A stretch of 57,352 bases of DNA from Coriobacteriia bacterium. Lineage in GTDB: Bacteria; Actinomycetota; Coriobacteriia; Anaerosomatales; SLCP01. The position numbers were made by a program, and so were the translations under genes. The notes below the pieces were generated by a model. The model was not told the DNA's origin. It saw nothing but the letters and a program-made list of their open reading frames with translations, and searched no databases. This document shows positions 48,827 to 52,206 of the stretch, piece after piece (within the stretch, counting starts at the first letter, position 1; each line of letters opens with the position of its first letter). The DNA is taken from NCBI GenBank assembly GCA_019429145.1, contig JAHYJI010000005.1:1-57352 (forward strand). Direction: 5' to 3'.

Positions 48827-48901
48827 GGGCGCTTAGCTCAGGGGGAGAGCACTTCCTTGACGCGGAAGGGGTCAGAGGTTCAAATCCTCTAGCGCCCACC
48901 A
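48827..48901 (+). tRNA. tRNA-Val (GAC anticodon)
   Basis: Acceptor GGGCGCT pairs with AGCGCCC. The anticodon stem CTTCC/GGAAG holds loop TTGACGC, giving GAC. The T-arm AGAGGTTCAAATCCTCT and encoded CCA are complete. Its last 13 bases are repeated at 52156-52168, marking it as an insertion target. Confidence 0.96.
48889..48901. repeat. Left attachment repeat inside tRNA-Val 3' end
   Basis: CTAGCGCCCACCA forms the 3' end of the tRNA. It is identical to 52156-52168. Direct repeats of a tRNA 3' end are typical of site-specific integration. Confidence 0.75.
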
Positions 48902-48910
48902 TGGATGAAG

Positions 48911-48956
48911 AAACGCCCCTTCGGGATCTCTGCGGAGATATTCGAAGGGGCGTTTT
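48911..48956. terminator. Bidirectional terminator after tRNA-Val
   Basis: AAACGCCCCTTCG (48911-48923) pairs with CGAAGGGGCGTTT (48943-48955), with T-rich ends on both strands and an inner ATCTC/GAGAT pairing. It can stop tRNA-Val and the minus-strand initiator-like gene, whose stop codon overlaps it. Confidence 0.85.
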
Positions 48957-49863
48957 AGCTGGCCCCGAGCGAGGCGAGCGCACCATAGAGGCGGCTGATG
49001 ATCCGACCTTCACTCTCGGCCCGGGCAGCGTGACGGATGCGCGGCTGGGGCTCAGAGGCCCCCCACAGCCCCGGCAGCACCTCCCAGCGCGGATCGAGCG
49101 GCCAGCGGCTCTTGTTGGCCCCTGACGGAACGCAGAGCTTGCACCACTCGACCCCATGGGCAAACAGCCCCGGCAGAATCTGAAAGGACTCACGGACCGT
49201 GTCCGCTGAGAGCTCTCTGAGCGCGTCGCGCCGGTACTGCACTTCGATGCGCCACACAGGAGCGTCCGGATCGTAGTGCTCCGCAGACTCCCACACCGTC
49301 GCATATGAGAGCTTCTTCTTGGCCTTGAGTTCAGCGTCCTTGCGGTAGATGCGAAAGACGGTATTGCGCGTGCCGAGCTTGTACGTGACCCCTTCGCCGT
49401 CTTTGTGGATGCTTCGGGCACTTGCCCGGCAGACGATGTTTTCGAAGTCACGGTCAGTGAACTCAAAGCCCTGGACATCGAGACACAGGTCCAGGCGCGA
49501 GAGGGTGTTTTCCCGATCCGCTCCAAGGGAGGCGGCAAGCTGTGCCGAACGCTCGTAGAGCTCCGTGTGGCCGTGTGTGGCAAGCGCTTGGGCGAGCAAG
49601 CGTACCGAGACCGGAGGGATACCGCTTGCGGCAACAGAGACCCGGAGGATGATGTCTGAGTCCTGTAGTACGAAGCGATACGTGCCGCTGCCCTTGGGAG
49701 TCACGAAGAACTCCTCACCGCCACCGTCGAAGGGCTGAGGACGGTCTAGAAGCTGTGCCCGGTCCTTGGCGGTCTGAAGGCGTGAGATCAGGCCATCGAC
49801 GAGCTCACCTTCAAAGGTCGCTTCCAGGGTATCCACACCGGCATAGAGGAGCCGAATACTCAC
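48955..49863 (-). CDS. Replication-initiator-like protein
   Basis: The 302-aa product has an N-terminal strand (GVDTLEATFEGEL), TLSRLDLCLDVQGFEFT in the middle, TYKLGTRNTVFRIYRKDAELKAKK and VWRIEVQYRRDALREL, the pattern seen in plasmid and phage Rep proteins (Rep_trans/replication initiation factor). These nick or open a replication origin. The GTG 49863 start overlaps the end of the 69-aa gene (GTGA), with AGAGGAC upstream. It lies in the small element bounded by the tRNA-Val repeats and ends in a bidirectional terminator. Homology is by motif pattern only. Confidence 0.55.
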   Translation of the reverse strand: MSIRLLYAGVDTLEATFEGELVDGLISRLQTAKDRAQLLDRPQPFDGGGEEFFVTPKGSGTYRFVLQDSDIILRVSVAASGIPPVSVRLLAQALATHGHTELYERSAQLAASLGADRENTLSRLDLCLDVQGFEFTDRDFENIVCRASARSIHKDGEGVTYKLGTRNTVFRIYRKDAELKAKKKLSYATVWESAEHYDPDAPVWRIEVQYRRDALRELSADTVRESFQILPGLFAHGVEWCKLCVPSGANKSRWPLDPRWEVLPGLWGASEPQPRIRHAARAESEGRIISRLYGALASLGAS

Positions 49864-50069
49864 GACTTGTCCTCTTGGGTGTAATTAGAATCCCCCATGT
49901 TATAAGCGCTGGGGGATTCGAGCCCTGCGGGCTCCGGGGCGAGGAGTCCGTCAGCGATCAGATCGATGAGCAGCACCGCGAGGGCGCGGGCCTCGGCCGC
50001 CTCCAGGGCGCATCCGCGCCGCTGGAGCTCGGCGCGAAGCTCCGCGCCCACCTCGTGCTTGCTGCTCAT
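49860..50069 (-). CDS. 69-aa element protein upstream of the initiator
   Basis: This 69-aa protein has a helical N-terminal half (EVGAELRAELQRRGCALEAAEARALAVLLIDLIADGLL) and a polar tail. ATG 50069 has GGAGGTG nine bases upstream on the minus strand, so it is a real gene. Its stop overlaps the GTG of the initiator-like gene, linking their translation. It may be a small regulator of replication, but no motif proves it. Its ribosome-binding site is in a strong hairpin. Confidence 0.6.
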   Translation of the reverse strand: MSSKHEVGAELRAELQRRGCALEAAEARALAVLLIDLIADGLLAPEPAGLESPSAYNMGDSNYTQEDKS

Positions 50070-50078
50070 GTGATCTCA

Positions 50079-50109
50079 CCTCCAAGACGGTCTCGTTCGG
50101 TCTTGGAGG
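50079..50109 (-). promoter_or_regulatory. Hairpin that can mask the element's ribosome-binding site
   Basis: CCTCCAAGAC (50079-50088 on plus) and GTCTTGGAGG (50100-50109) are perfect ten-base arms with an 11-base loop. On the minus-strand mRNA the GGAGG arm is the 69-aa gene's Shine-Dalgarno, so the stem would hide it. An operator at the DNA level is also possible. Confidence 0.65.
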
Positions 50110-50123
50110 GAGTATCTGTGTGG

Positions 50124-50864
50124 CTAGTCCGGTTTCGCGGACAGAGAATCGAGCACTTGTGTCCACTTATCGCGATATCGGCGGACAGCCCTGCCTACCG
50201 TGTGAGCCGCCTTGCGGACCTCTTCGGAGTAGTTTTCGGGCTCAGCCATAGCCTCGGGGAGTATCCCTGAGCGTAGATCGGCAAGCGCGATCTCGCGGTA
50301 GGAGCCGCGCTTCTCACCGAGGGCTTGGTATCTACGGAACCACTCAGCGTCGCGAAGCGCGTTCTCATGCTCGCCGATGTAATGCGCGAAAGTCCGGTCG
50401 CAGACACGCTGGAAGTCTTCGGTGATTGTGCCGGAGGTCAGCGGTGTCGCGATGGCTATGACTACCGGAAGCTCGAACTCGTCTTCCTCGTGAATCAGGG
50501 TCTGCACTCCGCCGGTGAGCATCGGCAGCATCGGGAACCCTTCGCCTCCGAGATCGGCGATGACTGCAGCGAGCATGTGGAGCGCAAAGTACTGCCGGAA
50601 GGCCGCACGCGCGTCGTCAGGAAGGGTGATGCCTTGCGCCGCGATGCCGTTGAGCAACTCGTCGAGATCGAGGCCGTCTTCTTTGAGGAGTTCCGCCACG
50701 CGGTCAGCGGCCCACTCGTGACTCTGGCCGGTAGCATTCATCTCGCGGACGACGGCCTGTGCCGCACGCCATGCAGGCGTGTCCTTGACGAGCTCGGTGA
50801 GCTCGAGCGCTGATTGTGTCCATGCGGGGAGGTCCATGAGAGCTAGGGTAGCACCCGCCAGCAT
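50124..50864 (-). CDS. Unknown element protein
   Basis: This product has up to 246 aa. ATG 50837 (237 aa, MDLPAWTQSALELTELVKDT) is the likelier start, but neither has a clear ribosome-binding site. It is mostly helical and acidic, with no signal peptide. AAFRQYFALHMLAAVIADLGGEG could be an amphipathic or weak membrane segment, and VVIAIATPLTSGTITEDFQRVCD is a second conserved-looking block. No known domain is recognised. It lies upstream of the initiator-like operon on the same strand. Confidence 0.45.
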   Translation of the reverse strand: MLAGATLALMDLPAWTQSALELTELVKDTPAWRAAQAVVREMNATGQSHEWAADRVAELLKEDGLDLDELLNGIAAQGITLPDDARAAFRQYFALHMLAAVIADLGGEGFPMLPMLTGGVQTLIHEEDEFELPVVIAIATPLTSGTITEDFQRVCDRTFAHYIGEHENALRDAEWFRRYQALGEKRGSYREIALADLRSGILPEAMAEPENYSEEVRKAAHTVGRAVRRYRDKWTQVLDSLSAKPD

Positions 50865-51007
50865 CGCACCCGACTACAGGCAGTCGGCGCGAGCTATGCC
50901 CTTCGGGCTCGCGCCGGCCTGATCACCTGTGGACGGCTGCTAGAGGCCAGTCCTCAGTGATTGTCTATACTGCGGGAGACAGCGCACGATCCATCAGGAG
51001 GACGTTC

Positions 51008-52126
51008 TTGTCTGCTCGGTCCAACTCCGCTCTGCATCACGGACCCAAGGCTTCGCTTCGAGTGCTCGCATGGAGAGTGCGCGAAGCGATGGTCGGGGCT
51101 TGGAAGCGGCATGACCGTACCCCCCTATACTGCAAGGCGCTTGCTGGTGAGTCCGACTACAACATCTGCGTGAATTCGGACATGACCGTATCGTGCAATT
51201 GCCAGGACTTCGACGGAACGGGTCGCATAGGTGATCTGCGATCGCATTCCCTTGCGGAGATATTCTCGGGTGAGACGGTCCAGGCTTTCCAGGAGTCCCT
51301 GGCGTCAAGAGAATTCCCCACAAGCGTGTGCCACGCATGTCCTGAACTGGCCCCAATCCCAGCCCACGAACTTGCCAGAGGACCCGCGCTCGGTCGAGTC
51401 CCGCGTAGGGGCATCATGGTGGAAAACACCGCGATGTGTAACCTCAGATGTGGACTCTGTCGTCGCAAGGAACTGCTGGCCCTCCGTCGTCAGCCCTCGC
51501 TGAGCCTCGAAGACGTCGCGCACGTGTCGAGAATGCTGGCCGAGTACGGCATCGAGCAGGTCGCATTCTTCAATCTGGGCGAACCGTTTCTCTCTCCAGA
51601 CATTCTTTCTGAGATCCGTCTCCTGCGGCGGCACAATCCAGCTCTCCGTATCCTGACTTCTACAAATGGCCTCTTGCTGGACAACGAGGCGAAGATTGAG
51701 GCCGCCCTTCTCACGGACTACGTCTACTTCTCCATTGACGGAGTCTCGCAAGATACCCTGGTGCGCTATCAGGTAGGGGGCAGCTTTGACAGGCAATACG
51801 GCAATATGAAAGCACTTGTGGAGCAGAGGAACCATCGAAAGGCCACTGACCGTACAGTACGAGTCCCGCTTGTCGAGTGGAAATACGTGTTCTTTCGCTG
51901 GAATGACCACCTGGACCACCTGACGCAGGCATGGGAACTGGCCCAGGAGGCCGGAGTCGATAGACTGACCTTTCACCCCGGGTCCGTAACCGAAGAGGCC
52001 GACCTCTCCAAGCGATCCCTGACCGACCCGTTCTTCCTTTCAGCGGGAGCTCGACTCGTTGATGGCGGGATGAGTATCGACCTTACCGCCTACTCGGCAG
52101 GGGACCTTCGGTTGGAGAGCTTGTAG
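51008..52126 (+). CDS. Radical SAM enzyme with N-terminal SPASM-like segment
   Basis: The 372-aa product has CNLRCGLC (CxxxCxxC) at about 143-150, SLEDVAHVSRMLAEYGIEQVAFFNLGEPFL and SIDGVSQDTLVRY, a normal radical SAM core. Before it lies a SPASM-like block: NICVNSDMTVSCNCQDFDG, IGDLRSHSLAEIFSGETVQ and CHACPEL, with Cys pairs placed as in the usual C-terminal SPASM domain. The order is therefore permuted. TTG 51008 has AGGAGGA five bases upstream; GTG 50957 is in frame but would ignore that site. Lower GC and codon use suggest transfer. The target is unknown; relatives modify peptides or sugars. Confidence 0.75.
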   Translation: MSARSNSALHHGPKASLRVLAWRVREAMVGAWKRHDRTPLYCKALAGESDYNICVNSDMTVSCNCQDFDGTGRIGDLRSHSLAEIFSGETVQAFQESLASREFPTSVCHACPELAPIPAHELARGPALGRVPRRGIMVENTAMCNLRCGLCRRKELLALRRQPSLSLEDVAHVSRMLAEYGIEQVAFFNLGEPFLSPDILSEIRLLRRHNPALRILTSTNGLLLDNEAKIEAALLTDYVYFSIDGVSQDTLVRYQVGGSFDRQYGNMKALVEQRNHRKATDRTVRVPLVEWKYVFFRWNDHLDHLTQAWELAQEAGVDRLTFHPGSVTEEADLSKRSLTDPFFLSAGARLVDGGMSIDLTAYSAGDLRLESL

Positions 52127-52155
52127 CCAGCCCTAGACCGTTCGAAGCGCGTCAA

Positions 52156-52168
52156 CTAGCGCCCACCA
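52156..52168. repeat. Right attachment repeat, copy of the tRNA-Val end
   Basis: CTAGCGCCCACCA repeats the 3' end of tRNA-Val at 48889-48901 in the same orientation. Upstream there is a T-loop-like GTTCGAA, but the rest of the tRNA is not present. Confidence 0.7.
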
Positions 52169-52175
52169 ATAGCAC

Positions 52176-52206
52176 AGGGCCCTGGACCATTGGTTCGGGG
52201 CCCTTT
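52176..52206. terminator. Terminator between element and URO-D-like gene
   Basis: AGGGCCC (52176-52182) pairs with GGGCCCT (52198-52204), followed by TTTC. It separates the plus-strand radical SAM gene from the minus-strand gene. Confidence 0.75.

Follow-up and report, generated by a model that had tools for sequence, protein, structure and literature searches.

A decayed element at tRNA-Val in a Coriobacteriia bacterium, related to tRNA-targeting serine-integrase elements

The element and its empty site

In the genome of a Coriobacteriia bacterium of the order Anaerosomatales (assembly GCA_019429145.1), a small integrated element is found at the 3' end of a tRNA-Val gene on contig JAHYJI010000005.1. 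The 57,352 nucleotides analysed (positions 1 to 57,352 of this contig) are referred to below as the window. The tRNA-Val (GAC) gene occupies positions 48827-48901 of the plus strand (ARAGORN; Rfam RF00005, 66.6 bits). Its last 13 bp, CTAGCGCCCACCA, form the left copy (48889-48901, plus strand) of an exact direct repeat, the right copy of which lies at 52156-52168; the window contains no other perfect match. This repeat delimits an element of about 3.27 kb (48902-52168) carrying a gene for a rolling-circle initiator-like protein (rep), a small open reading frame (ORF) with an origin-like hairpin, a third ORF and a radical SAM gene. It derives, by decay, from a little-known family of serine-integrase elements that target tRNA genes, and resembles cis-mobilizable elements. 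Very probably, it was integrated at tRNA-Val by the large serine recombinase of its own family, the gene of which has since been lost.

Relatives were sampled with one genome per species, nearly all of them drafts. One genome of the same genus, G003, is 92-93% identical to the window around the tRNA-Val site. There, one BLAST match stops at window position 48901 and the other starts at 52156, the two overlapping by exactly 13 bp (G003:C11:117914-117926), where the repeat is present as a single copy. The G003 locus is a clean empty site, flanked on either side by syntenic sequence. In the window, a hairpin is located behind the right repeat (52176-52204, plus strand; fold z -5). Because the same hairpin directly follows the tRNA in G003, we read it as the own terminator of the tRNA-Val gene, displaced by the insertion.

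These observations agree with the original prediction, which had placed an integrated element at this tRNA 3' end and had estimated about 0.002 chance copies of the repeat; the recomputed value is about 0.0017. It had also proposed to compare occupied and empty loci in relatives. An empty site does exist within the genus, and gene contents at the tRNA-Val site differ between relatives.

The remnant of a deleted serine integrase

No recombinase gene is found inside the element, as had been predicted. However, the idea of a class that never had one does not stand, the tail of an integrase gene being still fused to rep. The first ~60 bp past tRNA-Val belong to the 3'-terminal part of a serine integrase gene, and 57 of 60 bases are the same as in the intact element of G007. 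This left arm (48875-48961, minus strand) retains the last ~28 codons, QLKRPFEYLRRDPEGAFLHPWWALEDLNL, which cover positions ~462-490 of the 490 of the integrase profile, with a stop codon within the tRNA gene. The alignment of the window with G007 runs through rep, skips 1,529 bp and picks up again in the terminal integrase codons. At the deletion junction (48961-48962), the 3' part of rep is joined to the integrase tail; the two BLAST matches share one base, at 48962. Relative to G007, ~47 C-terminal residues of Rep and ~94% of the integrase are lost. Because the integrase tail remains fused to rep, "no integrase" means here "integrase deleted".

Profile and protein searches of 400 genomes of the class found relatives of rep in seven other genomes, all of the same order, and none elsewhere. 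In five of them (G007, G032, G054, G060, and G041), rep adjoins tRNA-Val, and between the two lies the gene for a large serine recombinase of ~490 residues, the 3' end of which extends antisense into the tRNA. These integrases carry a resolvase catalytic domain (PF00239, E 4.7e-24), a Recombinase domain (PF07508, 2.2e-19), and a zinc ribbon (PF13408, 3.6e-9). The intact layout is made up of the tRNA, the antisense serine integrase, rep, the small ORF with its origin-like hairpin, ORF3, cargo and a right arm. Among the viral contigs scanned, the integrase has distant serine recombinases only.

As suggested by the original prediction, the source genome was searched for an integrase acting on the same site. 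Besides the tail, no serine integrase of its kind was found in the assembly, a draft in 143 contigs that is 98.5% complete. Several points weigh against the loss of the element's own integrase as the full account. An integrase may be hidden in a gap of this draft. The deletion may predate the insertion at tRNA-Val as well as follow it. The core motifs of Rep are kept and conservation of the arms is good, more than would be expected for an old relic. Finally, excision of the element is predicted rather than observed; its mobilisation in trans is plausible.

In G007 (C8; L014 11785-13551), the intact element carries a type IV restriction enzyme as cargo (PADLOC mREase_IV, 1.2e-63). A related element in G005 (C68; L015 1-100) has an intact right arm and a rep gene ending in an apparent insertion-sequence end at the contig edge. 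In G060 (C1; L018 14059-14078), a 20-bp right repeat is found without the usual right arm; the outer boundary of this element may stem from another insertion. In G002 (C24; L021 4229-4312), of the same genus as the source genome, the integrase tail with its hairpin stands alone beside tRNA-Val, with no right repeat, a further decay stage at the same site. Integrases of the same clade are also found at tRNA-Ile and tRNA-Ala (L073 5415-6982 and L074 3808-5320); therefore, target choice shifts within the clade.

The two arms

The left arm contains a hairpin (48911-48955, plus strand; fold z -7). In 33 arms, two-sided changes are observed at 11 of its 18 pairs, a number reached in none of 500 shuffles, and this covariation vanishes when the pairing register is slid. 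A simple terminator scan missed the hairpin, owing to its loop and T-run rules, and folding and covariation were used instead. In the simplest reading, the hairpin is probably a transcription terminator for the tRNA; a recombinase-binding palindrome is also possible.

The right arm (52140-52168, plus strand) is a 29-nt motif with the consensus GTTCGAAGCNCNTCNA...GCCCACCA that ends in the tRNA repeat. In 465 kb, with at least 14 of the 16 scored positions required, this consensus has 16 matches in the element orientation and 0 on the reverse strand. In the window, the reverse complement of the right arm encodes WWALVDALRTV followed by a stop codon; in ~12 of 18 units it encodes WWA(I/L)(V/L)DALRT or a close variant, often with an immediate stop. 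Integrases in the integrated form end in WWAIxDLNL, which is encoded by the complement of the tRNA. We infer that the right-arm peptide corresponds to the integrase C-terminus in a circular form. Where units are arrayed in tandem, each right arm directly joins the left arm of the following unit.

Rep, the origin-like hairpin and the cargo

The rep gene (48955-49863, minus strand) encodes 302 residues, the C-terminus being ~47 residues shorter than in relatives. Its match to Rep_trans (E 1.9e-4, 21.5 bits) is under the Pfam cut-off of 29.6, and this match is weak in five of six rep relatives. Sequence comparison with the PDB gave nothing meaningful. In contrast, comparison of the predicted structure (mean predicted local distance difference test score 79) with the rolling-circle initiator 4cij gave a Foldseek E-value of 9.5e-11 and a template modelling score of 0.52. 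According to this model, Rep has a rolling-circle initiator fold.

The small ORF (49860-50069, minus strand; 69 residues) has conserved counterparts in G005 and G007. An origin-like inverted repeat (49888-49919; GAATCCCCCAGCGCTTATAACATGGGGGATTC on the minus strand) is located in the 3' end of the ORF. A hairpin containing an invariant TATAACATGGG is located just upstream of rep in seven of eight loci, and its stem is kept by compensatory changes. ORF3 (50124-50864, minus strand; 246 residues) belongs to no Pfam family and shows distant conservation in the intact relatives.

The cargo gene (50957-52126, plus strand) encodes a SPASM/radical SAM protein of 389 residues (Pfam Radical_SAM, 3.9e-15). 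Its GC content is 58.1%, vs. 65.9% in the remainder of the window. The replication-initiator-like gene and the low-GC radical SAM gene of the original prediction are thus both confirmed. Identification of the radical SAM protein as a viperin was dropped, the PADLOC matches being weak with scores under the NCBIfam cut-offs. The gene has no relatives among the viral contigs scanned.

Searching the viral contigs with the rep profile also returned no relatives. The origin-like motif occurs in 18 viral contigs; these occurrences were taken as chance, because none of the contigs carries a rep of the element's family. A rep of this family (~30% identity) is found, together with the same TATAACATGGGG hairpin, in an inovirus-like prophage of G063 (C37; L043 4523-9411). 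This prophage also encodes proteins resembling a single-stranded DNA-binding protein, a transmembrane coat protein, the secreted pIII protein and the P-loop protein Zot.

One may ask whether the element family consists of satellites of filamentous phages (inoviruses), a helper packaging the circle by means of rep and the origin, rather than elements mobilised by conjugation. Besides the G063 prophage, this possibility draws on the fold search with Rep, which also returns inovirus Reps, and on phiRSM1, an inovirus that uses a serine recombinase at tRNA-Ser (PMC3218068). However, Rep_trans/MobT proteins are just as typical of integrative and mobilizable elements (IMEs) and plasmids that are mobilised by conjugation (PMC5704250), no phage structural genes were seen within the elements, the G063 rep is only ~30% identical, and the Zot match of the prophage is under the Pfam cut-off. 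On balance, we consider the inovirus satellite possible, with somewhat less than even chances. As a route of transfer for the element, packaging by a helper inovirus is as possible as helper conjugation. The satellite status of the window element is put forward as a hypothesis, with one hint in the related initiator and hairpin of the G063 prophage.

Integrase-less units across the order

A 33-residue integrase-tail query was used to survey 69 genomes of the order, together with regional reading. This yielded 9 intact integrases vs. 35 truncated tails. Breakpoints fall within the last ~55 codons in 27 of the 35 tails and at codons 259-412 in the other 8, with none earlier. The corresponding P value of 1e-23 presumes uniform breakpoints and independence, and is a rough guide only.

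Several integrase-less units have both arms. The second unit of G054 (1.28 kb) encodes one DUF2510 protein and lies in tandem behind an intact element. Further units with both arms measure 1.37 kb in G013 and 1.04 kb in G038 (C22). Another, in G016 (0.62 kb), encodes one small monooxygenase-like protein; it adjoins a tRNA 3' fragment, a whole tRNA not being detected there. A unit of 4.1 kb in G007 (C7) carries antitoxin and nucleotidyltransferase genes. Intact integrases and integrase-less units co-occur in G007, G054, G032, and G037.

The unit of G013, a genome from another family of the order, is 1,370 bp long and is located at tRNA-Ala. A radical SAM gene lies between its left and right arms, and the unit has neither rep nor integrase. 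This gene and the right arm match window positions 50891-52168 at 79% DNA identity, and a second left arm in G013 is 95% identical to the window over 73 bp. In comparison, identity between the two genomes is 72% in the core genes that flank the window site. The radical SAM gene occurs in only 3 of the 400 class genomes, the third copy being a 53% relative in G039, which was ruled out as a member of an element since neither arms nor a tRNA are nearby. Because the cargo identity (79%) exceeds that of the core (72%) and the gene is otherwise nearly absent from the class, these comparisons support horizontal movement of the radical SAM cargo together with the right arm; the integrase may still have been present at that time. 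In G013 (C74), the tandem left arms (L130 1486-1565 and 2856-2934) have ~20 nt in common beyond the integrase tail, a hint of an integrase-less common ancestor. Across the order, the related loci suggest that integrase-less cargo units are common and might be mobilised by integrases produced elsewhere.

Alternative explanations

The integrase-less units with both arms could be a standing class of non-autonomous cassettes that evolved to be mobilised in trans by the serine integrases of intact relatives, in the manner of gene cassettes. The excess of tails over intact integrases, the bimodal breakpoints, the recurrence of both-arm units with one or few genes (G054, G013, G016, G038, and G007) and their presence in the same genomes as intact integrases are in favor of such a class, as is the finding, in a genome of another family, of a tRNA-Ala unit with the same radical SAM gene and right arm, likewise without integrase. 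However, the same cluster of breakpoints is predicted by stepwise deletion halting at the tRNA terminator, and the other genes of the two radical SAM units are not the same, which leaves room for independent loss of the integrase. The class mobilised in trans of the original prediction is supported as far as both-arm integrase-less units recur in the order, but an integrase that could mobilise the cassette is absent from the source genome. Overall, we regard an evolved cassette as rather unlikely. Slightly more doubtful still is the broader view that the tRNA 3' ends of the order are insertion sites for small, mostly integrase-less cassettes, each made up of a left arm serving both as terminator of the tRNA and as integrase C-terminus, one or a few cargo genes and a right arm. 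In this view, a serine integrase reading the tRNA would insert and reinsert them in trans, its C-terminus being swapped between element-coded and tRNA-coded forms at each integration.

About even chances can be given to the window element being an immobile relic, the tail of which persists solely as the present terminator of the tRNA. The truncation of rep, the disappearance of the integrase, the strong constraint on the left-arm hairpin and the frequent tail-only sites without a recognisable right arm (G002 and several further loci) all point in this direction. On the other hand, the right arm is useless to the tRNA and yet 16 of 16 scored positions are kept in the window and in several other integrase-less units. 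Two further explanations have very little probability. Rep is the sole nuclease-like protein of the window element, and a rolling-circle-type nuclease could have carried out the insertion, an integrase never having been required; however, rep is accompanied by a serine integrase in every intact relative, and the tail of one is still in the window. Similarly, a chance repeat or an assembly artefact could be considered in view of the 143 contigs of the draft, but the clean empty site of G003, with synteny on both sides, and the low expected number of chance copies argue strongly against it.

Proposed mechanism

With integration by a serine integrase that was later lost as the preferred explanation, the following cycle may be proposed for the family. 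An intact element would circularise through recombination between its two arms. In the circle, the integrase would end in WWA(I/L)xDALRT, encoded by the right arm; in the integrated state, the host tRNA, read on its complementary strand, would supply the ending WWAIxDLNL instead. With its C-terminus supplied either by the right arm or by the tRNA complement, the gene would stay open in both states. Upon integration, the left arm would bring a terminator substituting for the displaced tRNA terminator, and this may account for deletions halting just short of the terminator in the arm. By nicking the hairpin origin, Rep would start copying or transfer of the circle. On its own, the window element would be unable to excise. 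Since it has kept both arms, movement would in principle be possible with an arriving related integrase, or through accretion to an intact element located at the same tRNA, in the manner of cis-mobilizable elements.

Relationships with known elements and significance

Cis-mobilizable elements (CIMEs) are defined as having kept their attachment sites and lost their recombination genes; classical CIMEs range from 1.2 to 13 kb (PMC7563491). The window element has kept attachment sites (the two 13-bp copies and the arms) and has lost all recombination genes. Like CIMEs and decayed IMEs, for example in Streptococcus salivarius (PMC7563491), it is derived by deletion, with attachment sites kept and units occurring in tandem with intact elements. 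It differs from them in that its parent uses a serine integrase at tRNA 3' ends, in that part of rep and the origin-like hairpin remain, and in the recurrence of single-gene units across an order. Within its mobilisation module, the C-terminus of Rep is cut, and the core of Rep and the hairpin remain. IMEs have their own integrase, which is absent from the window element and present in its intact relatives.

Serine recombinases integrating into tRNA genes have been called rare (PMC3218068). The Mycobacterium tRNA-Leu actinomycete integrative and conjugative elements (AICEs) and phiRSM1 at tRNA-Ser use such recombinases; however, AICEs have an FtsK-type translocase and phiRSM1 is a complete filamentous phage (PMC3218068). 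No FtsK/SpoIIIE-type translocase was found among the ORFs of the window element or the main G007 ORFs scanned. The Dehalococcoides ssrA islands also have a serine recombinase (DsiB) beside attL at a tRNA-like 3' end, tandem arrangement and direct repeats, an integration module being found in 16 of 31 (PMC3146451). They differ by their tmRNA target, a 20-bp repeat and DsiA, ParB-like and Mom-like genes, with no Rep_trans described (PMC3146451). MobT/Rep_trans IMEs have a relative of rolling-circle initiators as a candidate mobilisation or replication protein and no conjugation apparatus, but the tRNA-targeting examples listed use tyrosine integrases (PMC5704250). The literature searched, which covers only part of the field, contained no description of the parent family.

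Gene-based tools have difficulty in detecting integrase-less islands. Here, both arms, the 29-nt signature of the right arm and the left-arm hairpin were obtained from sequence alone, which makes a direct search for such units possible. The question of whether integrase-less islands still move thereby becomes testable. Finally, the arms suggest how an element of this family spares its tRNA target, by bringing a terminator, and how the integrase reading frame stays open in both the circular and the integrated states.

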